A stretch of DNA of 64,000 nt from an uncultured Tateyamaria sp. (GTDB taxonomy: Bacteria > Pseudomonadota > Alphaproteobacteria > Rhodobacterales > Rhodobacteraceae): positions 248,001-312,000 of the forward strand of contig NZ_CANNES010000002.1 in the NCBI RefSeq assembly GCF_947503705.1. Direction: 5' to 3'. A program made the translations under genes and the position numbers. This document shows, piece by piece, positions 1,815 to 18,525 of the stretch; position 1 is the stretch's first letter; each line of letters starts with the position of its first letter. The notes under the pieces were generated by a model. That model saw only the letters and a program-made list of their open reading frames with translations, was not told the origin of the DNA and did no database searches.

Positions 1815-2186
1815 TTACAGTGCCATCCGCGCAAGAGCGAACAGCCCAAAAGCGATTAGCCCGTAGGAAAATGCGCTGGTCGCGATCAAGGTCAACTTGC
1901 CCGCCGTTCCGTGCACATAGTCCTCGATGGCGGCATGGGCCTCGCGCATCAGGTGGACAACGATGACGATCAGCGACAACGCACAGACAATCGCCGGGAA
2001 CGGGCGGCTGAAATAGGCGATGACCTCTTGGTGGGTTCCGCCCAGCGCACCGTCAAAGATGAAAACAAACAGCGGCACCAGTGGCACCAGAAGGATCGAA
2101 CTGACCATCATCTGCCAGTGGTGGTGGGTGCCCTCACGACCAGAGCCAAGGCCGGTCACGCGTTTACGGTCTGTGATAAAGCGCAT
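1815..2186 (-). CDS. sdhD: Succinate dehydrogenase membrane anchor subunit
   Basis: 123-residue membrane anchor of complex II, which with SdhC binds haem b and ubiquinone. Three hydrophobic segments are visible (about residues 26-47, 60-80, 98-120). The N-terminal HHHWQMM stretch and the VHLMREAHAAIEDYVHG segment, with conserved histidines and aspartate, are characteristic of alphaproteobacterial SdhD. It lies between sdhC (11-bp gap) and sdhA (41-bp gap) in one operon. Assignment rests on position and topology as much as on sequence, because these anchors diverge strongly. Confidence 0.93.
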   Translation of the reverse strand: MRFITDRKRVTGLGSGREGTHHHWQMMVSSILLVPLVPLFVFIFDGALGGTHQEVIAYFSRPFPAIVCALSLIVIVVHLMREAHAAIEDYVHGTAGKLTLIATSAFSYGLIAFGLFALARMAL

Positions 2187-2197
2187 CTGAAAGCCTC

Positions 2198-2581
2198 CTA
2201 AACCGCTATGGCGACGATCAGGGTCAGCACAGTTGCCAGCCCGAACATCCCAATTGCCATCTTTTCCGAGACCTCGACTTCGACGAAATAGCCAAAGTCC
2301 CAGAGAGCGTGACGCAAACGGCCCAGCATGTGATAGAAAATGGCCCAGGTCGCCGCCAGCATGATCAGCTTGCCCAGCAGGCTGCGCAAAAGCCCATCAA
2401 CAGTTGCAAAGGCTTCAGCCGAACTTGCGGCGGCAACAAGCCATGCCACGACCAGCAAAGCGGCCCCGAGGCAAGCGATGCCCGTAATCCGCACCATGAT
2501 CGACGAAATCGAAGTCATCTGCGGGCGATAGATTTGCAAGTGCGGCGATAGCGGGCGGTTGCCCCGATTGACGTCGGCCAT
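2198..2581 (-). CDS. sdhC: Succinate dehydrogenase cytochrome b556 subunit
   Basis: 127-residue first gene of the sdh operon, the large cytochrome b anchor of complex II. The N-terminus reads MADVNRGNRPLSPHLQIYRP, the typical SdhC opening, and is followed by a SSIMVRITG segment with the quinone-site serine and arginine. A conserved HMLGRLRHALWD motif contains the haem-ligand histidine. Three membrane segments are present. The ATG at 2581 was chosen over the longer frame (to 2674) because it matches family N-termini and has an AAGGAC ribosome site just upstream. The longer start would also cut into the leader below the operator. Confidence 0.95.
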   Translation of the reverse strand: MADVNRGNRPLSPHLQIYRPQMTSISSIMVRITGIACLGAALLVVAWLVAAASSAEAFATVDGLLRSLLGKLIMLAATWAIFYHMLGRLRHALWDFGYFVEVEVSEKMAIGMFGLATVLTLIVAIAV

Positions 2582-2693
2582 AATGCGTCCTTTTTGTTCC
2601 CTGTCCCTTGATAACGCATTCTGTGCACGTGTCACGTGCCGACCCATCACAAATAGCGCGGTGTTTTGGCGCATTTTGCAGTTTATGCCAAAT

Positions 2694-2724
2694 TGTGATC
2701 ACACTTGAAAAGACTGTGATCACA
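2694..2724 (-). promoter_or_regulatory. Paired TGTGATCACA operator upstream of sdhC
   Basis: Two perfect 10-bp palindromes, TGTGATCACA, occupy 2694-2703 and 2715-2724, 21 bp apart start to start (two helical turns). They lie about 113-143 bp upstream of the sdhC start codon and just after the stop codon of the DUF1194 gene. The 11-bp spacer, read toward sdhC, contains CTTTTCAA. The same arrangement precedes sucC at 11543-11573. The palindrome shape fits a GntR/FadR-type dimer. AkgR, a reported regulator of TCA genes in Rhodobacter, is a candidate that I recall but cannot verify here. Confidence 0.8.
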
Positions 2725-2727
2725 ATC

Positions 2728-3390
2728 TTACGGGGTAGGCAGCAGTGTTACCTGTCTCGACGTCTCGCGCTGCAATTTGCGTTTGATTTGTTCGGGATAG
2801 TCCGCGAATCCGTTTGCCGTTGCCACAAAGGCTCCCGGACCGGTGATCACGTTTTCAAAGAAGTATGCCGTAAGGTCGGTTTGATCCGTCTCTATTGCCA
2901 TGGCGTTGACCGTGATATCGGCTGCATTCAGCGCACTGCGCTGTGTCGCCGGTTCAATCCCCTCATTGGACACGCCGTCGCCAGACACATCAATCACTTT
3001 GCGCACACAATCGGAGACAGGGGCAAAGGCATTGCGGCTGATTGCCAACGCCTCGCCGATGGCGGTCGAATAGTTGCGCCAAATGCGCAGGTCATTCTGT
3101 ATTGTGTCCGCCAGGGACAATACGTCGCCGTACCCTTTGATCTGCGTCCAAGGAACAGTCTGGCGTTGCCGCGATGATCCCGTCCATTGTACCAGGCTGA
3201 CCTGCGCGTCTTGATCGACCAACGCGTCAGCCACGATCCCATCGCGCAGGGCCAACGCCAGCCCGTCCATCTGGACGCGGTATTCATCCTTGTCGACGGA
3301 CCCCGACACATCGACCGCCAAAAGCAGTGCCAGTTCGCAGGCCTTCGCGGGTGTGGACATCAAAAGGAGTATGGCAATGCATCTCAACAT
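2728..3390 (-). CDS. DUF1194 (VWA-like) exported protein
   Basis: 220-residue protein with a signal peptide (hydrophobic residues 2-16, cleavage near AKAC). A von Willebrand A-like fold follows: the metal-site motif DVSGS at about residues 27-31, a conserved threonine region, and DVSGDGVSNEG at about 139-149. This matches the DUF1194 family, common in Rhodobacteraceae and of unknown function. It is probably periplasmic and might bind a divalent metal and a protein partner. It sits directly upstream of the sdh operator on the same strand, so read-through into sdhC is possible. It need not be related to succinate dehydrogenase. Confidence 0.85.
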   Translation of the reverse strand: MLRCIAILLLMSTPAKACELALLLAVDVSGSVDKDEYRVQMDGLALALRDGIVADALVDQDAQVSLVQWTGSSRQRQTVPWTQIKGYGDVLSLADTIQNDLRIWRNYSTAIGEALAISRNAFAPVSDCVRKVIDVSGDGVSNEGIEPATQRSALNAADITVNAMAIETDQTDLTAYFFENVITGPGAFVATANGFADYPEQIKRKLQRETSRQVTLLPTP

Positions 3391-3443
3391 CAGATCAGCC
3401 TAGCGTGGCGCGCGTCCAAACGCATCTCACTTTGGCGTGCCGG

Positions 3444-4151
3444 TCAATCCAGCACGTCAAAAAGGTCGCGCAAATGCGCTTCAAACTCGGTGCACATAAT
3501 AATTTGGACCTCGGCGGGATCGTAAAACGCGTTCGCCTCGCCACATTCTTCGATCACCACACCAACACGGTCAGGCAGGTTGAAATCCCCATTCAGTGCC
3601 GCAACTTCGGCGGCGATCACGTCCACGGTCAGATTGTCGAAGCCATTCGCTTCAAATTGCAAACTCGTGCCCTGCCCCGCAATATCGTCAAAGGCAGCAC
3701 TCCAACTGTCATAGGCCAGTTCAAATTCTTCGGGGCAGGTCTCTGCCCGATCCATAGGAAGGCCCATGTCGTCGGCGAAGTCCTCGCGAACCTCTGGGTT
3801 GGCCCCATAGAACAGACACACAGTGTTGTAAAAACGTTGTTCGTCCGGCCCATGCACATCCCAATAGGCCACGTCGCCCGCAACCTCGGCCTCACCCAAA
3901 AAGCCAAAGGCGGCGTCATAAGCAAGGTCGACCGCCGCCTCTTCTTCGTAAAACGCGTCTATCATCAGGATAGACGCGACATCGGCGGCGTCTTCCTCTT
4001 GTCCAAAAACGGGCAGGCCCAATACGTCGATCAGGGCATGGCCAAATTCATGGTAAAAGATGCCCAACAGGTTCGCTTCGACAAAGCCGTCCCGCGTCTC
4101 ATCCGCCCAGACAGGGCCCGCCAAGATCAAGAATGCCAACAGGTACCGCAT
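3444..4151 (-). CDS. DUF4344-type exported metallopeptidase
   Basis: 235 residues from the chosen ATG, with a clear signal peptide (RYLLAFLILAGPVWA) and a gluzincin-like HEFGHALI zinc motif at about residues 34-41. This fits the DUF4344 'putative metallopeptidase' family. The mature protein is very acidic and contains several cysteines that may pair in the periplasm. A longer frame begins at 4220, but its first 23 residues are Arg/Pro-rich and precede the signal peptide, so 4151 is preferred. The DUF1194 gene follows 53 bp downstream on the same strand. The substrate is unknown. Confidence 0.8.
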   Translation of the reverse strand: MRYLLAFLILAGPVWADETRDGFVEANLLGIFYHEFGHALIDVLGLPVFGQEEDAADVASILMIDAFYEEEAAVDLAYDAAFGFLGEAEVAGDVAYWDVHGPDEQRFYNTVCLFYGANPEVREDFADDMGLPMDRAETCPEEFELAYDSWSAAFDDIAGQGTSLQFEANGFDNLTVDVIAAEVAALNGDFNLPDRVGVVIEECGEANAFYDPAEVQIIMCTEFEAHLRDLFDVLD

Positions 4152-4238
4152 CGCGCCCTCCAAGGGATGGTTGGTGGGGCGTCGCGCGCGCGCAAGCGTC
4201 GGGCGCGCGTCACCCATCATCCCAACAGCAAATCATTT

Positions 4239-5270
4239 TCAGACCGGCATCAAAGCCCAGTAATCCAGATCGAGCAACACCTCGGGCAAGTATTTCCCAT
4301 CGTCACCCTTCAGCGCGAAGGGTGCACCTCCTTTGGTCGCCACCAGCCGCAAGCGGATCGCGCCCACACCGGGCGCGTCTGTTTCGGCCTTGTCCAGAAC
4401 TTCCGACCAGGCCCGGATCGTGTCACCGGACAGGCAGGGGTTTGCATGAGCGCCCCCGTTCAGGCCGACGACCATCTGCGCATTGGCCAACCCATTGAAG
4501 GACAGCGCGCGCGCCATGGAAATCACATGCCCGCCGTAGATCAGCCGACTGCCATCGGGGCGGGCCGAAGTGTTAAAATGCACCTTGGCCGTGTTCTGCC
4601 AGAGCCGCGTGGCCATCATATGCTCGGCCTCTTCCACGGTTACGCCATCCACATGGTCGATCCGCTCGCCAATTTCATAGTCGTCCCAGCGATGCGCCTC
4701 GCCCGCCAGGCCAAAGTCGTAATCTGAAAAATCGAGGCCTTGCGGCACAACCAAATTGCTTGCGCTTAGCGCGGGGGCGAGGTCTGGGATCACAGTCTTC
4801 GGGGCCGCGGCATCAAGGTCGCCCTTGCGCACCATGACCCAGCGCACATAGTCCAAGACCGTCTGCTCCCGCTGGTTCAACCCCGTTGTCCGTACCCAGA
4901 CGACACCGGATTTGCCGTTGGAATTCTCCTTGACCCCAATGACCTCAGATTGCGATCTGAGCGTATCGCCCGGCCAGACAGGGGCATGCCACCGCCCTTC
5001 GGCATAGCCCAGATTGGCCACGGCATTCAGCGATATATCCGGAACAGTTTTGCCAAAGATGATGTGAAAGGCGATCATGTCATCCAGCGGTGCTGCACCC
5101 AGCCCACAGCCTTGCGCAAACTGATCCGACGAATACAGCGCATGTCGCGCCGGATAGAGCATGTGATACAGCGCACGCTCCCCACCTGACACCGTGCGCG
5201 GCACCGCATGGTCGATCACCTCACCGACGCGGTAATCCTCGAAAAAGCGGCCCTTGTTAGTTTTGGCCAT
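4239..5270 (-). CDS. mch: Mesaconyl-C1-CoA hydratase (beta-methylmalyl-CoA dehydratase)
   Basis: 343 residues, the length of Rhodobacter Mch. In the ethylmalonyl-CoA pathway this double-hotdog MaoC enzyme hydrates mesaconyl-C1-CoA to beta-methylmalyl-CoA. The N-terminal half carries RFFEDYRVGEVIDHAVPRTVS, and the second hotdog begins near residue 190 with a hydratase-like DYEIGERIDHVDGVTV stretch. Together with mcl2 nearby, it supports acetate or propionyl-type carbon assimilation without isocitrate lyase. Its start overlaps the stop of the DUF1737 gene (TGATG), so the two are translationally coupled. Confidence 0.93.
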   Translation of the reverse strand: MAKTNKGRFFEDYRVGEVIDHAVPRTVSGGERALYHMLYPARHALYSSDQFAQGCGLGAAPLDDMIAFHIIFGKTVPDISLNAVANLGYAEGRWHAPVWPGDTLRSQSEVIGVKENSNGKSGVVWVRTTGLNQREQTVLDYVRWVMVRKGDLDAAAPKTVIPDLAPALSASNLVVPQGLDFSDYDFGLAGEAHRWDDYEIGERIDHVDGVTVEEAEHMMATRLWQNTAKVHFNTSARPDGSRLIYGGHVISMARALSFNGLANAQMVVGLNGGAHANPCLSGDTIRAWSEVLDKAETDAPGVGAIRLRLVATKGGAPFALKGDDGKYLPEVLLDLDYWALMPV

Positions 5271-5473
5271 CAGTGCTCTCCCAGCTTAACGTCCGGGGTG
5301 TAATCGCCCGGCACCTCTTTGGTGACCGCCTGACCACAACGCATGGTTCCTGCAGCATGATCCCAGGTTTGCGTCGGGCTGCCGTGCAGCGCCCACCCCT
5401 TGTTCAGCGCATCCGTGACCTTGTGACAAAAGGCTGATGTGTCTTCCTCAGACAAAAAGCGATACAAAATCAT
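5270..5473 (-). CDS. DUF1737 small protein
   Basis: 67-residue cytoplasmic protein beginning MILYRFLSEEDTSAFCHKV and containing LNKGWALHGSP, the hallmark of the DUF1737 family. No function is known; it resembles a small alpha/beta domain. It overlaps mch by one base and follows the NnrU-like gene by 3 bp. It therefore belongs to the mcl2 - NnrU - DUF1737 - mch operon. It may accompany the CoA-ester enzymes, but that is only inferred from gene order. Confidence 0.85.
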   Translation of the reverse strand: MILYRFLSEEDTSAFCHKVTDALNKGWALHGSPTQTWDHAAGTMRCGQAVTKEVPGDYTPDVKLGEH

Positions 5474-5476
5474 GAC

Positions 5477-6025
5477 TTACCCCGGGAATGGCCAGACACC
5501 GGCCCAAATGTGAATGGCCGCCACAACCCCAAACATGACCAGCGTGATCACGACCAGCAGAATGTCTTTCTTGGCCTCGCCAGGTGCGGGGCGTTCCCAA
5601 TTCGGCTCTGCCCGGTTGATCAGAACGACCGATCCGACAGCCCAGGCGAGCAAACCACCAAACAGAATGATCGAGGCCAAATCGCCATTGACCAGTAGGT
5701 GGGCCACGGCCCAGATCTTGACCGCTGTGAGTTGCGGGTGGCGCATCCTGCCACGCAGGCGGCCCGTGGTGGCCGACATGCCATAGACGAAAAAGGCAAC
5801 CAACATCAGTAGGTTGTTGATGTGGATCATAAAGCCAGGTGGATACCAGACCGGGATAAACGCCGCCCATTGATACCCAAAGATCATCGCCAGGACGCTG
5901 GCGACAATCAGCAGCGCGACGCCGCCTTTGCCCGCGTTGCCAAGGCTGGCGCGCAAGCCCGGGGCCAGGCGTTTGAAATAATGGGCCAGAATCCATAGGA
6001 GTAGTCCAAGGATCAAAAGGGTCAT
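5477..6025 (-). CDS. NnrU family membrane protein
   Basis: 182 residues with about five hydrophobic segments. It starts MTLLILGLLLWILAHYFKRL, and the conserved NnrU features RHPQLTAVKIWAVAHLLVNGD and GSVVLINRAEP are present. NnrU proteins were named for a link with nitric-oxide reduction, but no nitrogen-oxide genes are in this window. Here the gene sits between mcl2 (4-bp ATGA overlap) and DUF1737. The name therefore reflects family membership; a role in denitrification is not supported by the context. Confidence 0.88.
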   Translation of the reverse strand: MTLLILGLLLWILAHYFKRLAPGLRASLGNAGKGGVALLIVASVLAMIFGYQWAAFIPVWYPPGFMIHINNLLMLVAFFVYGMSATTGRLRGRMRHPQLTAVKIWAVAHLLVNGDLASIILFGGLLAWAVGSVVLINRAEPNWERPAPGEAKKDILLVVITLVMFGVVAAIHIWAGVWPFPG

Positions 6026-6885
6026 GTAGGTGTCTCCGCTGCGAGGGCCGCGATGGCCTCGGCTTTGGCCAAGGTCTCGCGCGCCGTCACGATGTGCAGA
6101 TTCTCGACGATACGTCCATCCACCACCGCCACCCCCTGGCCGCTGGCCTCGACGTCCTGAAAAGCCGCAATCTGACGGCGGGCCAGGTCCAACTCTGCCT
6201 CAGACGGGGAAAACGCGGTGTTGGCCACGTCCAGTTGCGCCGGGTGGATCAGCGTTTTGCCGTCAAAGCCCATGTCGCGCCCCTGGGCACATTCCACGGC
6301 CAAACCTTCGTCATCCTTGAACGCGTTGTAGACCCCGTCGACAATGGCCAACCCATGCGCCTTGGCCGCCAGCAGGCACAGGCCCAGACCCGTCATCAAG
6401 GGCAGGCGATCCGCACGAAATCGTGTTTGCAATTCCTTTGCCAGATCATTGGTGCCCATAACCATGCCCTGCAAAAGCGGGTGCGCGGCAATCGCCGCCG
6501 CGTTCAGCATGCCCAAGGGCGTTTCCATCATGGCCCAGAGCGGTGTGTCGCCTGTGATTTCGGCCAGCGCGTCCAGATCCGATGCGCTTGAGACCTTGGG
6601 CATCAAGATCGCATCGGCGCCCATCGCCTTGGCGGCGGCGGCATCGTCAGCGCCCCATTCAGTATCCAGCCCGTTGATACGCACGATCCGCATCCGCGCG
6701 CCATATCCACCCGTGGCCAAAGCCTCGGCCAAGGTTGCTCGCGCAGCCACCTTTTCATCCACAGACACCGCATCTTCGAGATCAAAGATGATCGCATCCG
6801 TCGCGAGACCCCGCGCCTTGTCGAGCGCGCGCGGTTTTGAACCGGGAATATAAAGGACAGAGCGGAGTGGGCGGGCAAAGGCCAT
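6022..6885 (-). CDS. mcl2: (3S)-malyl-CoA thioesterase
   Basis: 287-residue CitE-like TIM-barrel enzyme. The N-terminal RSVLYIPGSKPRALDKARGL and the FDLEDAV metal/CoA segment match Rhodobacter Mcl2 rather than Mcl1 (which reads CQLFGPGSR). Mcl2 hydrolyses (3S)-malyl-CoA to malate and CoA, releasing malate from the condensation of glyoxylate and acetyl-CoA. The KTLIHPAQ and HIVTARETLAKAEAI motifs support this. The ATG at 6885 was chosen because the 26 extra residues of the longer frame do not resemble the family. It heads the operon with NnrU, DUF1737 and mch. Confidence 0.9.
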   Translation of the reverse strand: MAFARPLRSVLYIPGSKPRALDKARGLATDAIIFDLEDAVSVDEKVAARATLAEALATGGYGARMRIVRINGLDTEWGADDAAAAKAMGADAILMPKVSSASDLDALAEITGDTPLWAMMETPLGMLNAAAIAAHPLLQGMVMGTNDLAKELQTRFRADRLPLMTGLGLCLLAAKAHGLAIVDGVYNAFKDDEGLAVECAQGRDMGFDGKTLIHPAQLDVANTAFSPSEAELDLARRQIAAFQDVEASGQGVAVVDGRIVENLHIVTARETLAKAEAIAALAAETPT

Positions 6886-7224
6886 GCGGGATTCCTCGGG
6901 GGACATAAAGTTGCGCGTTATGGGGCATTTATTTGCAGATAGTTCAAGGGGTGATTGCCGCATTGCAGCAATTTTACCTTGCCTGTGATGGGAAATCTCA
7001 AATGCGACAGATCACCGAACGGGCCGTTAACCATTATTTCAGGCTCTGGCGGCAGGCTTTGTACATTCCGAGACCTCCGGGAGGGCCGTTTCAGCAGGGC
7101 CGCTGAACAGTTTGACGGAGCGAGGCCGAGGGATGGAGATGGAACCGGCGCTGCCCGGTCATCGCCGGAACACCGGCAGGGCCAGATGACCAGAGGTGAT
7201 GCCTTTTGAGACAAAGGGCTGAAC
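6886..7224. other. Intergenic region between mcl2 and a divergent small exported gene
   Basis: 339 bp with no convincing coding sequence. It must hold the divergent promoters of mcl2 (minus) and the small exported gene (plus). A TTAACCAT octamer at 7027-7034 equals a CtrA half-site, but no second half lies 7 bp away. A short inverted repeat, TTCAGC/GCTGAA, lies around 7090-7105. I could not place reliable -35/-10 elements. Nothing else is recognisable. Confidence 0.5.
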
Positions 7225-7227
7225 GTG

Positions 7228-7560
7228 ATGATACGGAACATGAAATTCTTGAAGATGGGCGCAGTGGCCGCGACCTGTGGACTGACCATATTGACCGCCG
7301 GGCTGGCCAGCGCACAGCAGCAGCGCAATTGCGGGCCGCGCGATCTGGTGGTGGCGCGGCTGGCCGAGGGTTACGGCGAAACCCGTCAATCCATGGGGCT
7401 CGGCGCGAACAACGCAGTGATCGAGGTGTTTGCCTCGGATGAGAGCGGAACGTGGACGATCACGGTCACGACACCCAATGGGATGACCTGCCTTGTCGCC
7501 AGCGGTCAGGCGTTTGAAGCGTTGGCCGAAGCGCTCCCCGCGCAAGGCAACGATGCTTGA
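7228..7560 (+). CDS. Small exported protein of unknown function
   Basis: 110 residues with a standard signal peptide (basic start, hydrophobic core, likely cleavage ASA-QQ near residue 28). The mature domain is about 80 residues with two cysteines (NCGPRD and MTCLVA) that could form a disulfide, and an alternating pattern ESGTWTITVTTPNGMTC suggesting beta strands. The ATG at 7228 has AAAGGG nine bases upstream; a GTG at 7225 is also possible. It is flanked by divergent mcl2 and a strong terminator at 7617-7642, so it is probably monocistronic. I do not recognise a named family. Confidence 0.7.
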   Translation: MIRNMKFLKMGAVAATCGLTILTAGLASAQQQRNCGPRDLVVARLAEGYGETRQSMGLGANNAVIEVFASDESGTWTITVTTPNGMTCLVASGQAFEALAEALPAQGNDA

Positions 7561-7616
7561 GAAGACGATGGCGTAGAAAGCCTACGCCTCAGGGGGATGC
7601 GGCCAGCGTGGCGAAG

Positions 7617-7646
7617 AAAGGCGCACTTTCGAGTGCGCCTTTTGCA
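7617..7646 (+). terminator. Rho-independent terminator with TTCG loop
   Basis: Perfect 11-bp stem AAAGGCGCACT / AGTGCGCCTTT (7617-7627, 7632-7642) closing a TTCG tetraloop. The A-rich and T-rich stem ends make it usable in both directions. It lies 57 bp after the small exported gene and 64 bp beyond the 3' end of the convergent TauE gene. Confidence 0.85.
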
Positions 7647-7706
7647 TATGAGACACCCTTTGAGACGTTCCCTTGGCATACGCTCATATCCGTACGCAGC
7701 CCCGGT

Positions 7707-9590
<1,884 letters not shown>

Positions 9591-9612
9591 TTCGACCCGC
9601 TTGTGATTTTTT

Positions 9613-9643
9613 GGGCCGGATGCCGTCGCGTCCGGCCCTTTTT
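9613..9643 (+). terminator. Rho-independent terminator of mdh
   Basis: Perfect 8-bp stem GGGCCGGA / TCCGGCCC (9613-9620 and 9631-9638) with a 10-base loop and a run of five T residues. It ends only 8-17 bp before the possible start codons of the next gene, which leaves little room for a separate promoter. Confidence 0.9.
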
Positions 9644-9651
9644 ACGTCTAT

Positions 9652-10482
9652 ATGTATCATATGCCTCAGTCGCGCCCCATCGAACGCAAGTTGACAACCA
9701 TTCTGGCCGCGGATGCAGCCAACTACTCCGGTCGGATGCGTCGGGACGAAGAAGGCACGGTGCGTGCCCTTCGTGCGGCCCGCGAGGTGATCGACAGTGG
9801 CATCACCCGGGCGCATGGCAGGATCGCAAACACCTCCGGCGACGGGCTGATCGCGGAGTTTCCATCCGTCATTGACGCCGTCCGCTGCGCCATCGACATC
9901 CAACAAACGCTGAATGGCCGAGAGGACCTTTTGCCCTTCCGCCTTGGCGTGCACCTTGACGACGTGATCATCGAGGGCGAGGATTTGTTGGGGGACGGCG
10001 TGAACCTGGCGGCGCGGCTCCAGGAGATGGCTGAAATCGGCGGCGTTCTGGTCAGCCAACAGGTCCGCGACCATGTGCGTGACAAAATTCGCGGGGCCGA
10101 ATTGCGCCCCCTTGGCCCTGCTGCGCCAAAGCATCTCGATGAGGTTGGGCTTTATGCCGTTGTCGCGCCGGGACTGGTTGCCCCGCGCCTGCTCGACAAC
10201 CTGGGTCCTAAAGTGCCCAGACCAACGCCTAAGCCCGATCCCGCGCCAGAGCCTAAAGCGGTCTCACAAATGCCCTCTCACGCCATCGAGATGCGGAAAA
10301 ACTATGTCAAAACCCGCAAATTTATCTGGGTCGGCATTGCCGGTTTGGCCGGTGTCGATCTGATAACCGGAGCGCCGTTTCTGGTCACGGCGGTCCCAAC
10401 GGTCGGCCTAGGGTACTTGCTTTGGGACCGGTGGACCAAGCTGCGTGAAGTGGAAAAAGGGGCCCTCAGCCCAGAGAGCTGA
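9652..10482 (+). CDS. Class III adenylate/guanylate cyclase with C-terminal membrane domain
   Basis: 276 residues. The cyclase homology domain (about 13-170) has the first metal aspartate in TILAADAANYS, the second in NTSGDGLIAEF, and GDGVNLAARLQEMA, so it may be active. A Pro-rich linker (about 190-220) leads to a C-terminal hairpin of two membrane segments with short loops (about 228-262). The expected product is cyclic AMP; nucleotide preference cannot be fixed by eye. ATG 9652 or 9661 is possible. The gene starts right behind the mdh terminator, and its last 17 bp overlap the 3' end of the convergent glycosyltransferase gene. Confidence 0.85.
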   Translation: MYHMPQSRPIERKLTTILAADAANYSGRMRRDEEGTVRALRAAREVIDSGITRAHGRIANTSGDGLIAEFPSVIDAVRCAIDIQQTLNGREDLLPFRLGVHLDDVIIEGEDLLGDGVNLAARLQEMAEIGGVLVSQQVRDHVRDKIRGAELRPLGPAAPKHLDEVGLYAVVAPGLVAPRLLDNLGPKVPRPTPKPDPAPEPKAVSQMPSHAIEMRKNYVKTRKFIWVGIAGLAGVDLITGAPFLVTAVPTVGLGYLLWDRWTKLREVEKGALSPES

Positions 10483-11509
10483 GATCCAGCACGTCTGAAA
10501 TCCATGGATTTCGCCGGATCAAATCCGTGTCGAATGCGCTGGGAGATAAGGCAGCGGCATCCACCATGCCGGACGGATCAAACGGCACCTCTCGCATCAG
10601 ATCAAAGGCCTCCAACCGCGCGCGCCGTTCTGGCGTGAGTGAAAACAATGTTGCATGCGCCGCCCTGAAATCTTCCAACCGGTCCCCTTGTTCCAGCATC
10701 CAGTTGATTTGCGCCGCGCGGTGCCCTTGCAAAACCGCTTGCTGCACTTCCGCAGAGTTCAGCCGATAGCGCAAGAATTTCAGTGCCCAATGTAGAGGCG
10801 TCAGCCCATCAAAGTGCAGCAGCCGGGTGGTGGTCGACACCTGCTTTGGCGCGCGTTTCCAGCGCTCGGATCCTCGGATCGTGGCGTTGTGCACACCCAA
10901 TCGCAAGCCTTGCCGCACGGATACGCCGCTTTTGCCCGCGCCATGTGAATACTGACCCCGCTTCATGAACCTGGCAAAGTCACCAAAGGCGCGCGCGGCA
11001 TCCTCTGGCTCCAGATCAGAGGACGCACGAAAGGTGCCGTCAAACAGTTTCGACTGCGGCCCGTCAGGAAACAGTCGCTCCAACACGGGCAGGTTCAGTT
11101 CAGTTGTACCGCCCGTCAACGGGGCCAGCTCACCCGCCAGATGATCGTCTTGCCAAATGAACTCATCCGCATCGATGTGAAACAGCCAATCGGTCTGGGC
11201 GCGTCGTTGGGCAAAATTGGCGTTGATCGTCTGGCGGCGCATCTGCGAAGCAGGCCGCCCTTTCTCACCCATGCGTCCCCGCCAATAACCCCGATCACAG
11301 CCCACAGCGATACAGCCGTCAATGGCTTCGATCACAGGACGCGCAGGATCATCTGGATCATCAAAGAACACGTGTACCGCATGTGCGCCGGTCGCCAAGT
11401 GCCAGAGCACATTGGTCCGCACCAGGGCCAGAGGTTCGCAGACAGTCATGACCACGCCCCATGTCGGAGAGTGCTGAGTCTGCGTCGTTCCGGCGCGCAA
11501 GTCTGTCAC
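10466..11509 (-). CDS. Glycosyltransferase family 2-like protein
   Basis: 347 residues. It opens with the GT2 nucleotide-sugar pattern TWGVVMTVCEPLALVRTNVLWHLATGA, then HVFFDDPDD and a DADEFIW metal motif at about residues 114-120. It resembles the Glyco_tranf_2_4 group frequent in Rhodobacteraceae, which modify surface polysaccharide or glycans. Acceptor and donor are unknown. It is transcribed away from sucC and overlaps the 3' end of the cyclase gene by 17 bp on the opposite strand. The TGTGATCACA pair at 11543-11573 lies only 34 bp upstream of its start, so it too may respond to that operator. Confidence 0.8.
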   Translation of the reverse strand: MTDLRAGTTQTQHSPTWGVVMTVCEPLALVRTNVLWHLATGAHAVHVFFDDPDDPARPVIEAIDGCIAVGCDRGYWRGRMGEKGRPASQMRRQTINANFAQRRAQTDWLFHIDADEFIWQDDHLAGELAPLTGGTTELNLPVLERLFPDGPQSKLFDGTFRASSDLEPEDAARAFGDFARFMKRGQYSHGAGKSGVSVRQGLRLGVHNATIRGSERWKRAPKQVSTTTRLLHFDGLTPLHWALKFLRYRLNSAEVQQAVLQGHRAAQINWMLEQGDRLEDFRAAHATLFSLTPERRARLEAFDLMREVPFDPSGMVDAAALSPSAFDTDLIRRNPWISDVLDLSSLG

Positions 11510-11542
11510 GCGAATCCCCTATTCCACTGCCATTTCAAAATT

Positions 11543-11573
11543 TGTGATCACACTTTTCAAACGTGTGATCACA
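11543..11573 (+). promoter_or_regulatory. Paired TGTGATCACA operator upstream of sucC
   Basis: Two perfect TGTGATCACA palindromes at 11543-11552 and 11564-11573, again 21 bp apart, with an 11-bp spacer containing CTTTTCAA. They lie 115-145 bp upstream of the sucC start, the same distance as the sdhC pair. They are also close to the divergent glycosyltransferase start. The match in motif, spacing and distance makes chance unlikely. Confidence 0.8.
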
Positions 11574-11687: not shown

Positions 11688-12881
11688 ATGAACATCCATG
11701 AATACCAAGCCAAAGCCCTTTTGCGCAGCTACGGGGCTCCGGTCTCTGACGGGCGCGTCGTTCTCAAGGCCGAAGACGCCAAGACGGCAGCGGGCGCGCT
11801 GGACGGCCCGCTGTGGGTGGTCAAGGCGCAAATCCACGCGGGCGGTCGCGGTAAGGGTACGTTCAAAGAGGCCGATGCCGGTGACAAAGGCGGTGTACGC
11901 CTGACCAAATCGGTCGAAGAGGCCGCAACAGAGGCCAAGAAGATGTTGGGCCGCACCCTGGTCACGCATCAGACCGGTCCCGTCGGCAAGCAAGTCAACC
12001 GCATCTATATCGAAGACGGTTCCGGAATCGAGACCGAGCTGTACCTCGCCCTTCTGGTAGATCGTCAAACCAGCCGCGTCAGCTTTGTCTGCTCCACCGA
12101 GGGCGGCATGGACATCGAAGAGGTTGCAGCCTCAACCCCCGAAAAAATCCTCAGCTTTTCCGTTGATCCGGCCACGGGTTACCAAGCCTTTCACGGTCGC
12201 CGCATTGCGTTCTCGCTGGGCCTCTCCGGCAAGCAGGTCAAGCAATGCGTGGGCCTGATGGGTCTGCTCTACAAAGCCTTCATCGAGAAAGACATGGAGA
12301 TGCTGGAGATCAACCCGCTGATCGTGACCGACAGCGGTGATCTGAAAGTGCTTGACGCCAAAGTGTCGTTTGACGGCAACGCGATGTACCGCCACGCCGA
12401 CATCAACGAGCTGCGCGACGAGACGGAGGAAGACCCCAAGGAACTCGCCGCCTCGAAATACGACCTCAACTATATTGCGCTGGATGGCGAAATTGGCTGC
12501 ATGGTCAACGGCGCGGGTCTGGCCATGGCCACGATGGACATCATCAAGCTTTATGGGGCCGAGCCCGCCAATTTCCTCGACGTGGGCGGTGGTGCGACCA
12601 AGGAAAAGGTGACCGAGGCGTTCAAGATCATCACCTCTGACCCGCAGGTCAAAGGCATCCTGGTCAATATCTTTGGCGGTATCATGCGCTGCGATGTGAT
12701 CGCCGAGGGTGTTGTGGCCGCTGTGAAAGAGGTCGGCCTCAAGGTGCCGCTGGTTGTCCGCCTCGAAGGCACGAACGTGCAGCAGGGCAAAGACATCATC
12801 AACAACTCGGGCCTGGACGTGATTGCAGCCGACGACCTGAAAGATGGCGCGCAAAAGATCGTGAAAGCGGTCAAGGGCTGA
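11688..12881 (+). CDS. sucC: Succinyl-CoA synthetase beta subunit
   Basis: 397 residues. It forms the ADP/GDP-specific ATP-grasp half of the enzyme that interconverts succinyl-CoA and succinate with substrate-level phosphorylation. It begins [19 protein letters not shown], and the nucleotide segment [14 protein letters not shown] and phosphohistidine-loop segment [15 protein letters not shown] are present. Subunit interface and metal-site residues look intact. It is followed 12 bp later by an exported-protein gene that separates it from sucD. Control by the paired palindromes at 11543-11573 is inferred. Confidence 0.97.
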
Positions 12882-13463: not shown

Positions 13464-14348
13464 ATGGCCGTACTCATCGACGAAAACACCAAAGTGATCT
13501 GCCAGGGCCTGACCGGCTCTCAAGGGACATTCCACACCGAGCAAGCGATTGCCTATGGCACAAAGATGGTCGGCGGCGTGACCCCCGGGAAGGGCGGCAT
13601 GACCCACCTTGATCTGCCCGTCTATGACAGCGTGCACGAGGCGATGGCGCGGACAGAGGCCAACGCATCCGTGATTTACGTCCCACCCCCCTTTGCTGCG
13701 GACTCGATCCTTGAGGCCATCGACGCTGAAATGCCGCTGATCGTCTGCATCACCGAAGGCATCCCGGTTCTCGACATGATGAAGGTTGAGCGGGCGTTGG
13801 AAGGCTCCAAATCTCGCCTTGTGGGTCCCAACTGCCCCGGCGTGATCACACCTGACGCTTGCAAGATCGGCATCATGCCCGGCCACATCCACAAGCGCGG
13901 GTCCTGTGGGGTTGTGTCCCGCTCGGGCACGCTGACCTATGAGGCGGTCAAGCAGACCACCGATCTGGGCATCGGCCAGTCCTCCGCCGTTGGCATCGGC
14001 GGTGACCCGATCAAAGGGACCGAGCATATCGACGTGCTGGAGATGTTCCTGGCCGACCCCGAAACCACCTCGATCATCATGATCGGTGAGATTGGCGGCA
14101 GCGCCGAAGAAGACGCGGCCCAGTTCCTCGCCGACGAGAAAAAAGCAGGCCGCTGGAAGCCCACCGCCGGTTTCATCGCGGGCCGCACGGCCCCTCCCGG
14201 CCGCCGCATGGGCCACGCCGGCGCGATCGTTGCAGGCGGCAAAGGCGGCGCCGAGGACAAGATCGAAGCCATGCGCGCCGCGGGCATCGTTGTGGCTGAC
14301 AGCCCGGCGACCCTGGGCGAGGCCGTAATGGAGGCGATCAAGGGCTGA
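13464..14348 (+). CDS. sucD: Succinyl-CoA synthetase alpha subunit
   Basis: 294 residues. It binds CoA in an N-terminal Rossmann fold ([13 protein letters not shown], about residues 17-29) and carries the phosphorylated histidine, His251, in [16 protein letters not shown]. The [10 protein letters not shown] segment is also typical. It pairs with SucC, encoded 0.6 kb upstream. The downstream 291 bp contain two hairpins but no clear T-run terminator. Confidence 0.97.
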
Positions 14349-15567: not shown

Positions 15568-18525
15568 ATGACCGACCAATCCCCCAACGACCAGTTCCAT
15601 GCCTCCTCCTTCATGCAGGGGCACAATGCGGAATATCTGGAACAGATGTATGCCCGCTATGCCGGGGATCCGAACGCGGTCGACGAGGCGTGGCAGGCGT
15701 TTTTCAAGGCGATGGGCGATGATGAGGTCAGCGTGAAACAAGAGGCGTCCGGCCCGTCCTGGGCTCGGGGCGATTGGCCGCCGATGCCCGGTGATGACCT
15801 GACCCAAGCCCTCACCGGCGAGTGGGCCGCGCCGGCGGAAGTCAAAGGGGCCGGTGAAAAGATCAAGGCCAAGGCCACCGAGAAGGGCGTCGAGGTTTCC
15901 AACGACCAGATCAAGCGCGCTGTTCTTGACAGTATCCGCGCCCTGATGATCATTCGCGCCTACCGCATCCGGGGCCACCTTGTCGCTGACCTTGATCCGC
16001 TTGGCATGCGTGATCAGACTCCCCACCCCGAGCTTGATCCAAAATCCTACGGCTTTACCGAGGCCGACATGGACCGTCCGATCTTTATCGACAAGGTGCT
16101 GGGCCTCGATGTGGCCACCATGCGCGAGATCATCGACATCGTGAAACGCACTTATTGCGGCACCTTTGCCCTGCAATACATGCACATCTCCAACCCCGAA
16201 GAGGCCGGTTGGCTCAAGGAACGAATTGAGGGACTGGGCAAGGAAATCCAGTTCACCCGTGAGGGCCGCAAGGCGATCCTGAACAAGATGGTCGAGGCCG
16301 AGGGCTTTGAGAAATTCCTGCACGTCAAATACATGGGCACCAAGCGGTTTGGCCTTGATGGCGGTGAAAGCCTAATCCCCGCGATGGAGCAGATCATCAA
16401 GCGTGGCGGTGCGCTTGGCGTCAAGGAAATCGTGATCGGCATGCCCCACAGGGGCCGTCTGTCCGTTCTGGCCAACGTGATGGCCAAACCCTACAAGGCG
16501 ATCTTCAACGAATTCCAGGGCGGAAGCTTCAAACCCGAAGATGTCGATGGCTCGGGCGATGTGAAATACCACCTCGGTGCGTCCAGCGACCGTGAGTTCA
16601 GCGGCAATTCCGTACACCTCAGCCTGACGGCTAACCCCAGCCACCTTGAAGCTGTGAATCCTGTCGTTCTGGGCAAGGCTCGCGCGAAACAGGATCAACT
16701 GAAGGACGAGGAACGCACCTCTGTCATGCCCATCCTGCTGCACGGCGATGCAGCCTTTGCCGGTCAGGGCGTTGTGGCGGAGTGTTTCGCCCTGTCCGGC
16801 CTCAAGGGCCACAAAGCAGGCGGCACAATGCATATCGTGGTCAACAACCAGATCGGGTTTACCACGGCGCCGCACTTCTCGCGCTCGTCCCCTTATCCCA
16901 CTGACAATGCGTTGGTAGTCGAAGCACCGATTTTCCACGTGAACGGTGACGATCCCGAGGCCGTGGTGCACGCTGCCAAGGTTGCCACCGAGTTCCGCCA
17001 GAAATTCCACAAGGACGTGGTCATCGACATCTTCTGCTACCGCCGGTTCGGCCACAACGAGGGCGACGAGCCCATGTTCACCAACCCGGTGATGTATAAG
17101 AAGATCAAAAAGCAAAAGACGACCCTGACGCTGTACACAGAGCGTTTGGTGCGCGACGGGTTGATCCCCGAAGGCGAAATCGAGGATATGAAGGCCGCGT
17201 TCCAGGCACGCATGAACGAAGAGTTCGAGGCCGGCAAAGACTACAAACCCAACAAGGCCGATTGGCTGGACGGCAAGTGGTCGCATCTGGACAAAAACAA
17301 GGACGACTACCAGCGCGGCAAGACCGCCATCGCGCCCGAGACTTTCGAAGAAGTCGGCCGCGCCCTGTCGACGGTTCCCGATGGTTTCCCGCTGCACAAA
17401 ACTGTGGGTCGCCTGATGGACACCAAAAAGGCGATGTTTGAAAGCGGCGAAGGTTTTGACTGGGCAACTGGCGAGGCGCTGGCCTTTGGCTCGCTCTTGA
17501 CGGAGGGCTACCCGGTGCGTCTGGCAGGCCAGGACAGCACGCGCGGCACCTTCAGCCAGCGGCACTCGGGTCTGGTCAATCAGGAAACCGAAGAACGGTA
17601 CTTCCCGTTGAACTCGGTTCGTCCCGGACAAGCACAATACGAAGTTATCGATTCCATGCTGTCGGAATATGCGGTGCTGGGTTTTGAATACGGCTATTCG
17701 CTGGCAGAACCCAACGCTCTCACCCTGTGGGAAGCGCAGTTCGGCGACTTTGCCAACGGCGCGCAGATCATGTTCGACCAGTTCATCAGCTCTGGTGAAA
17801 GCAAATGGCTGCGCATGTCGGGCCTTGTGGTCCTGCTGCCCCACGGGTTCGAGGGCCAAGGGCCGGAACACTCCTCAGCCCGGCTGGAACGGTTCCTGCA
17901 AATGTGCGGCCAGGACAACTGGATCGTCGCCAATTGCACAACGCCTGCAAACTATTTCCACATTCTGCGCCGTCAGATCCACCGCGACTTCCGCAAGCCG
18001 CTGATCCTGATGACGCCCAAATCTCTGCTGCGCCACAAGCTGGCGGTCAGCAAGGCCGAGGAATTCACCACCGGCAGCAGCTTCCACCGCGTGCTCTGGG
18101 ACGACGCCCAATTCGGCAATTCCGACACCGAACTGGTGGCCGATGACAAGATCAAGCGCGTCGTCATGTGTTCGGGCAAGGTGTATTACGACCTGCTGGA
18201 AGAACGCGACGCCCGCGGTATCGACGATGTCTATCTGCTGCGCTTTGAACAGTTCTACCCCTTCCCCGCCCAATCGGCGGTGAAAGAGCTGGAACGGTTC
18301 AAAGGGGCCGAAATGGTCTGGTGCCAGGAAGAGCCCAAGAACCAGGGCGGTTGGACCTTTATCGAGCCGAACCTGGAATGGGTTCTGGGCCGGATCAACG
18401 CCAAACATACGCGGCCCGTTTACGTTGGCCGCGCGACCTCCGCATCGCCCGCCACCGGTCTGGCCAGCATGCACAAGAAACAACAAGCCGCTCTCGTCGA
18501 CGAAGCGCTGACCATCAAAGGATAA
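15568..18525 (+). CDS. sucA: 2-oxoglutarate dehydrogenase E1 component
   Basis: 985-residue thiamine-diphosphate enzyme that decarboxylates 2-oxoglutarate and passes the succinyl group to the SucB lipoyl arm. It starts with the E1o N-terminal segment ending in [13 protein letters not shown]. The thiamine-diphosphate fold includes [18 protein letters not shown] and the GDAAFAGQG...NNQIGFTT cofactor signature (about residues 393-432). The C-terminal part contains the [16 protein letters not shown] active-site stretch. Length is normal. sucB follows 4 bp later. Confidence 0.98.

Follow-up and report, generated by a model that had tools for sequence, protein, structure and literature searches.

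Here we analyze a window of 64,000 nucleotides from an uncultured Tateyamaria sp. of the Rhodobacteraceae (contig NZ_CANNES010000002.1, positions 248,001 to 312,000), in which two pairs of the palindromic decamer TGTGATCACA stand before sdhC and sucC, the first genes of the succinate dehydrogenase operon and of the suc cluster. Very probably, judging from the comparison of sequences, these pairs are the sites of the genome's orthologue of AkgR, a regulator with GntR and FCD domains, which would bind each pair as two dimers on one face of the helix and activate sdh and suc together. The evidence that carries this view, namely the sites and their spacing, their conservation, their co-occurrence with the regulator and the phased distance to a predicted sdh promoter, is read directly from the DNA.

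Paired decamers before sdhC and sucC

The decamer TGTGATCACA occurs in four exact copies in the window (at 2694, 2715, 11543 and 11564) and nowhere else in it, against an expectation of 0.05, and none of 100 shuffles reached four copies. The copies form two pairs, each with a 21-bp period and an 11-bp spacer (N11), and the exact-match count confirms in this respect what an earlier sequence-only reading of the window had described. That reading had also placed the pairs at nearly the same distance from the start codons (113 to 145 bp) and the second pair 34 bp from the start of a divergent glycosyltransferase gene. Both statements hold in substance and needed correction in their figures: with the sdhC start placed at 2581 (MADVNRGNRP..., minus strand) and the sucC start at 11688, the pairs are separated from their genes by 112 and 114 bp, distances closer to each other than had been stated, and 33 bp separate the suc pair from the GTG at 11509, the putative start of the glycosyltransferase open reading frame (ORF). 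The features concerned are the following (the strand is left out for the palindromes).

2694..2703: AkgR-type operator proximal to sdhC, palindrome TGTGATCACA; exact match, pair conserved in the family
2704..2714, minus strand: 11-bp AT-rich spacer, GTCTTTTCAAG towards sdhC; centre AT-rich in relatives
2715..2724: AkgR-type operator distal to sdhC; exact match
2630..2635, minus strand: predicted sdh promoter -35, GTGACA, 58 bp past the proximal operator; element shared with relatives
2608..2613, minus strand: predicted sdh promoter -10, TATCAA, 16 bp after the -35
2198..2581, minus strand: sdhC, first gene of the sdh operon (Pfam Sdh_cyt, 5.2e-26)
1815..2186, minus strand: sdhD (Pfam Sdh_cyt, 1.7e-8)
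11543..11552: AkgR-type operator distal to sucC; exact match
11553..11563, plus strand: 11-bp AT-rich spacer, CTTTTCAAACG towards sucC
11564..11573: AkgR-type operator proximal to sucC; exact match, pair upstream of sucC in relatives
11688..12881, plus strand: sucC, succinyl-CoA synthetase beta chain, first of the suc cluster (Pfam ATP-grasp_2, Ligase_CoA)
13464..14348, plus strand: sucD, succinyl-CoA synthetase alpha chain (Pfam CoA_binding, Ligase_CoA)
15568..18525, plus strand: sucA, 2-oxoglutarate dehydrogenase E1 (Pfam E1_dh, OxoGdeHyase_C)
10466..11509, minus strand: divergent glycosyltransferase-family-2 gene, GTG start (Pfam Glyco_tranf_2_4)

On the minus strand, like sdhC, a gene for a DUF1194/VWA-domain protein (2728-3390 of the window) stops three bases short of the distal sdh operator.

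In the whole genome (4.43 Mb in 31 contigs) there are nine exact decamers, comprising the four of the window, one before the GntR/FCD gene treated below, and four inside ORFs, which are ABC-transporter, aldehyde-dehydrogenase and AMP-binding genes and one frame that stays open across its entire 3-kb locus. The pair, even with up to 3 mismatches allowed, is found before sdhC and sucC only, rather than in many unrelated copies. Examination of the family yielded the N11 pair (up to 2 mismatches) in 126 of 149 genera of Rhodobacteraceae, and a reversed control matched in none of them; the pair is conserved at sdh and suc promoters among relatives. We rejected chance repeats as the source of the decamers on the strength of the four copies against 0 of 100 shuffles, the absence of the pair elsewhere in the genome and this family-wide conservation. 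In a sample of 289 genomes from the class the pair appeared in four, these being three of the four members of the same family and one (G295) of the 285 others, and because the reversed control also matched once in this sample (G222), one match outside the family is, by count, no more than chance would give. This match (L209, G295:C189, 991-1021) lies just upstream of a different GntR/FCD gene, with TonB-receptor and short-chain dehydrogenase genes as further neighbours, and TGTGATCACA may be a palindrome serving a wider group of GntR/FCD proteins.

The surroundings of the pairs listed in the 149-genus scan were fetched as 70 loci, with pairs counted up to 3 mismatches. All 97 pair entries in these loci stand upstream of sucC or sdhC, which supports the joint control of sdh and suc that the sequence-only reading had put forward; after removal of duplicates, 39 sucC and 35 sdhC promoters carry the pair, the window's two included. 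Among the matches listed when any spacing from 0 to 30 was allowed, the 75 exact pairs (plus-strand entries) have the spacing N11 in 63 cases, N10 in 7, and N5, N12, N14, N17 and N21 in one case each. Spacing is therefore nearly always N11 or N10, in support of the earlier proposal of two dimers on one face of the helix. The N5 and N17 entries belong to one cluster in G125 (L353, C6:303624-303675), where three exact decamers with periods of 15 and 27 bp occupy a stretch of 52 bp inside a long ORF that by eye resembles an adenine deaminase gene; this cluster is probably a coding repeat.

The word CTTTTCAA, to which the sequence-only reading had drawn attention in the spacers, is indeed common to those of sdh and suc, but with an offset of two bases between them, and the letters of the spacer are not conserved in relatives. 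What relatives keep is only the AT-richness of the spacer centre (AT averages 0.83 at sucC, 0.70 at sdhC and 0.40-0.53 in the flanks), and CTTTTCAA was therefore rejected as a conserved signal.

The regulator gene and its co-occurrence with the operators

The GntR/FCD gene lies outside the window (C1:1008924-1009571) and encodes 216 residues with GntR and FCD domains. An exact decamer starts 17 bp before its ATG, the genome's only exact decamer outside ORFs besides the window's four, and among the 17 GntR-domain loci of the genome, checked over about 1.5 kb on each side, this locus is the only one to hold an exact decamer. Since the gene carries the same decamer at its own start, the regulator of GntR/FadR type proposed from the window alone is supported.

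The name AkgR comes from Rhodobacter sphaeroides, in which the AkgR regulon was reportedly the subject of a study by Imam, Noguera and Donohue (mBio, 2015), and we take AkgR to be RSP_0981. One genome of our set, G051, is presumably R. sphaeroides, as it gives a 100% match to a putative R. sphaeroides reaction-centre L chain sequence. The orthologue of the GntR/FCD gene in G051 is 76% identical and stands downstream of the sdh operon, one ORF past sdhB; by our own count the order is sdhC, sdhD, sdhA, two small ORFs, sdhB, a reverse ORF and the GntR gene, which as the eighth from sdhC would occupy the position of RSP_0981 if sdhC is RSP_0974. The range RSP_0974-6 given for sdh suggests this number for sdhC, and RSP_0981 is described as a GntR regulator whose predicted targets are sucCD, sdh and alpha-ketoglutarate dehydrogenase (PMC4344238, cited throughout from excerpts). 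The palindrome GTGATCAC figures among the AkgR sites in PMC6365646, likewise cited from excerpts. The operator core GTGATCAC (with TGTGATCACA at all four window sites), the orthology and gene position of the regulator (GntR and FCD domains, an orthologue in the RSP_0981 position of G051) and the predicted targets (pairs before sdhC and sucC, with sucD and sucA following sucC) agree, and for this reason we are most likely dealing with the AkgR regulon. AkgR had been named as a candidate in the sequence-only reading, and that suggestion gains support from the orthologue's position in G051 and from the tie between GTGATCAC and AkgR.

The system described here thus resembles the AkgR regulon of R. 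sphaeroides in the family of its regulator, in the sdh, sucCD and alpha-ketoglutarate dehydrogenase targets and in its GTGATCAC sites, and G051 carries both operator pairs as well. Unlike in G051, akgR is here on another contig from sdh and suc and has a decamer of its own. Immediately upstream of the akgR orthologue, the window's genome and G051 share a YgjP-like metallopeptidase gene (L025 732-1424, L184 11844-12653), an adjacency that is kept although akgR here is on a different contig from sdh. Another regulator to be compared is RSP_1663 of the LacI family, which we take to be CceR. RSP_1663 is, like AkgR, predicted to act on sdh (and on mdh) in R. sphaeroides, whereas its motif, [AGT]GTT-N6-8-AAC[ACT], is unlike the TGTGATCACA decamer (PMC4344238). 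PS417_07240, a GntR regulator of deoxyribonate catabolism in Pseudomonas that is 32% identical to AkgR, shares the core palindrome GTGATCAC but differs in having other target genes and one site per promoter, as far as the excerpts of PMC6365646 go.

The region upstream of akgR was surveyed in 80 named relatives out of 525, Tateyamaria, Sulfitobacter, Roseobacter and Ruegeria among them, and the decamer (up to 2 mismatches) lies within 60 bp of the akgR start in all 80, being exact in 73. Of 31 further akgR loci, taken from the window's own genome, from G051 and from the 29 genera next in closeness, 29 have the decamer, in 27 cases as an exact copy.

Regulator and operators are mostly present or missing together. 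Treating orthologue matches weaker than 1e-50 as paralogues, and with the two-by-two counts compiled by hand from listings, we found both the regulator and the N11 pair in 123 of the 149 genera, the regulator only in 10, the pair only in 3 and neither in 13; the pair is present in 123 of 133 regulator-positive versus 3 of 16 regulator-negative genomes (Fisher p = 3e-10, relatedness ignored). Several of the regulator-only exceptions dissolve, because the four that were checked at sucC (G009, G055, G058 and G143) have two sites each in the usual place, with a period of 20 bp in three of them and of 21 bp, with three mismatches, in the fourth. Four others (G061, G069, G087 and G133) each carry, at some point in the genome, an exact pair at 20 or 22 bp, and G122 and G147, both less than 80% complete, stand as exceptions without explanation. 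When 13 genomes without a clear akgR were checked at sucC, 11 showed no pair (a single weak site is present in each of G109 and G017).

Helical phasing and the proposed mode of action

The region before sdhC was taken in 142 of the 149 genera (seven without an sdhC match were left out), and pairs with any spacing from N5 to N25 and up to 3 mismatches were counted. A pair precedes sdhC in 113 of 128 akgR-positive genomes (N11 in 100, N10 in 12 and N9 in 1) and in 2 of 14 akgR-negative ones (G096 and G114). In 96 of the 113 promoters the pair is followed at 25-95 bp by CGTGAC or GTGACA (hexamer count 99, against a mean of 3.6 in shuffled stretches), and 16 bp after this hexamer by TAtnAa (T 0.89 and A 0.83 at its first two positions), a combination that reads as a predicted sigma-70-type promoter. 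The hexamer starts 55-60 bp after the proximal operator in 84 of these 96 promoters and at 35, 46-48, 67-70 or 79 bp in the other 12. None of these 12 distances is more than 2.5 bp away from 57.5 bp plus or minus whole multiples of 10.5 bp (Rayleigh R = 0.83, p ~3e-4, relatedness ignored). Using the looser hexamer [GT]TGAC, 4 of 104 matches were out of phase (at 41, 50 and twice at 85), and the distance from these 104 hexamers to the sdhC start codon ranged between 54 and 141 bp. Operators and sdh promoter hence appear to keep a fixed helical phase with a leader that can vary, an arrangement compatible with an activator that contacts RNA polymerase from one side of the helix. In relatives the pair at sucC is often followed, at 46-47 bp, by a TT-rich element resembling a -35 (17 of 39 best matches).

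In the mechanism that we favour, two AkgR dimers would sit two helical turns apart on one DNA face upstream of the sdhC and sucC promoters and would contact RNA polymerase, so that both operons are switched on together and the levels of succinyl-CoA synthetase, 2-oxoglutarate dehydrogenase and succinate dehydrogenase change in concert. At the single site at the akgR start, AkgR would probably repress its own gene. Binding by AkgR, activation, autorepression and the effector are what we infer from the patterns described above.

Several observations weigh against this view. The akgR genes of G051 and G126 have no decamer upstream, and autoregulation of akgR is for this reason not general. Pairs are present without a clear akgR in G019, G096 and G114; of these, G096 is 77% complete, and G019 (210 contigs) and G114 (320 contigs) have the pair at sucC. 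Before sdhC the pair (up to 3 mismatches) is missing from 15 of the 128 genomes with akgR, and no -35 can be recognised in 17 of the 113 sdhC promoters that bear the pair, which limits the phasing rule. A sigma-70 promoter sought at the window's sucC gave no convincing -35 or -10. Finally, other GntR/FCD proteins use the same palindrome (PMC6365646, excerpts; possibly also G295), and therefore the decamer alone does not name the regulator.

This last point opens the question of whether a GntR/FCD protein other than the AkgR orthologue binds the decamers. With 17 GntR-domain matches in the genome, the palindrome of PS417_07240 in Pseudomonas (PMC6365646) and the G295 pair preceding a different GntR/FCD gene, there is some ground for it, but we judge it very unlikely, because only the AkgR orthologue among the 17 GntR loci has the exact decamer, akgR orthologues keep this decamer, and the genomes that have the gene are mostly those that have the pair. 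A somewhat less remote alternative, although still improbable, is that the pairs are repressor sites, at which the dimers would block or loop the promoters until a signal releases sdh and suc. Repression is common among GntR/FCD proteins, the one site at the start of the regulator gene resembles a repressor site, and a distance-acting repressor could also give phase dependence. Most pairs, however, are 46-60 bp upstream of the predicted -35, a distance too great for a direct block, their constant phase relative to the -35 speaks for an activator, and AkgR is called an activator in the excerpts of PMC6365646. We find it hardly conceivable that the pairs bind a protein of the CRP/FNR type through their TGTGA and TCACA halves. 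These halves do resemble CRP sites, but in CRP sites they are separated by a 6-bp gap (TGTGA-N6-TCACA), and here they abut. Furthermore, R. sphaeroides is not predicted to have CRP-analogous proteins (PMC4344238, excerpts), and the pair co-occurs with a GntR gene; on half-site spacing and co-occurrence we rejected CRP/FNR-type operators.

Third pairs and the operators as a possible module

Three pairs were counted in five genomes (G022, G042, G115, G125 and G135), and the context of the third pair was determined for G042 and G115. In G042 the third pair (N11, one mismatch; C16:228292-228322; L351 1493-1523) stands 123 bp before the fumarase gene fumC. The third pair of G115 has 2 mismatches and was taken as chance, being located inside a transaldolase gene. 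A survey of 30 chosen genomes, 29 of which have fumC, identified a pair at this gene in G042 (1 of 29) and a single exact decamer in G039; the other 27, the window's genome included, have no decamer (up to one mismatch) within 300 bp of fumC. The operator module seems to have reached the next enzyme of the tricarboxylic acid (TCA) cycle, fumarase, in one genus.

Placing these results together, we hold with even confidence for and against that the double operator is a geometric module for two GntR/FCD dimers at a distance of two turns, which have to face RNA polymerase, such that evolution shifts the sdh promoter relative to the operators only by whole turns and is able to place the module before another gene of the TCA cycle, as with fumC in one genus. 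Were this true, the family would offer a natural experiment on face-of-helix activation by a regulator family best known for repressors, and the geometric module would be accompanied by a built-in negative loop on akgR. The findings connect two operons of central metabolism with one identified regulator across a large bacterial family, and they supply a testable rule for the way in which GntR/FCD proteins may activate, in which the spacing of the pair is two turns and the distance between operator and promoter is a whole number of turns. The motif, the type of regulator and the set of targets are already known for R. sphaeroides, and the Tateyamaria genome is a new instance of them; what is added here is the pair spacing of nearly always 21 or 20 bp, the usual co-occurrence of regulator and operators and the phasing of the predicted sdh promoter. 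In the literature covered, outside of which the main AkgR paper falls and which was partly represented by excerpts, we met no description of the double-site geometry or of its phasing, and we do not claim that these are unpublished.

The window's genome also encodes a reaction-centre L chain (C14:35293-36129), 71% identical to the R. sphaeroides query, and the organism is probably an anoxygenic phototroph.

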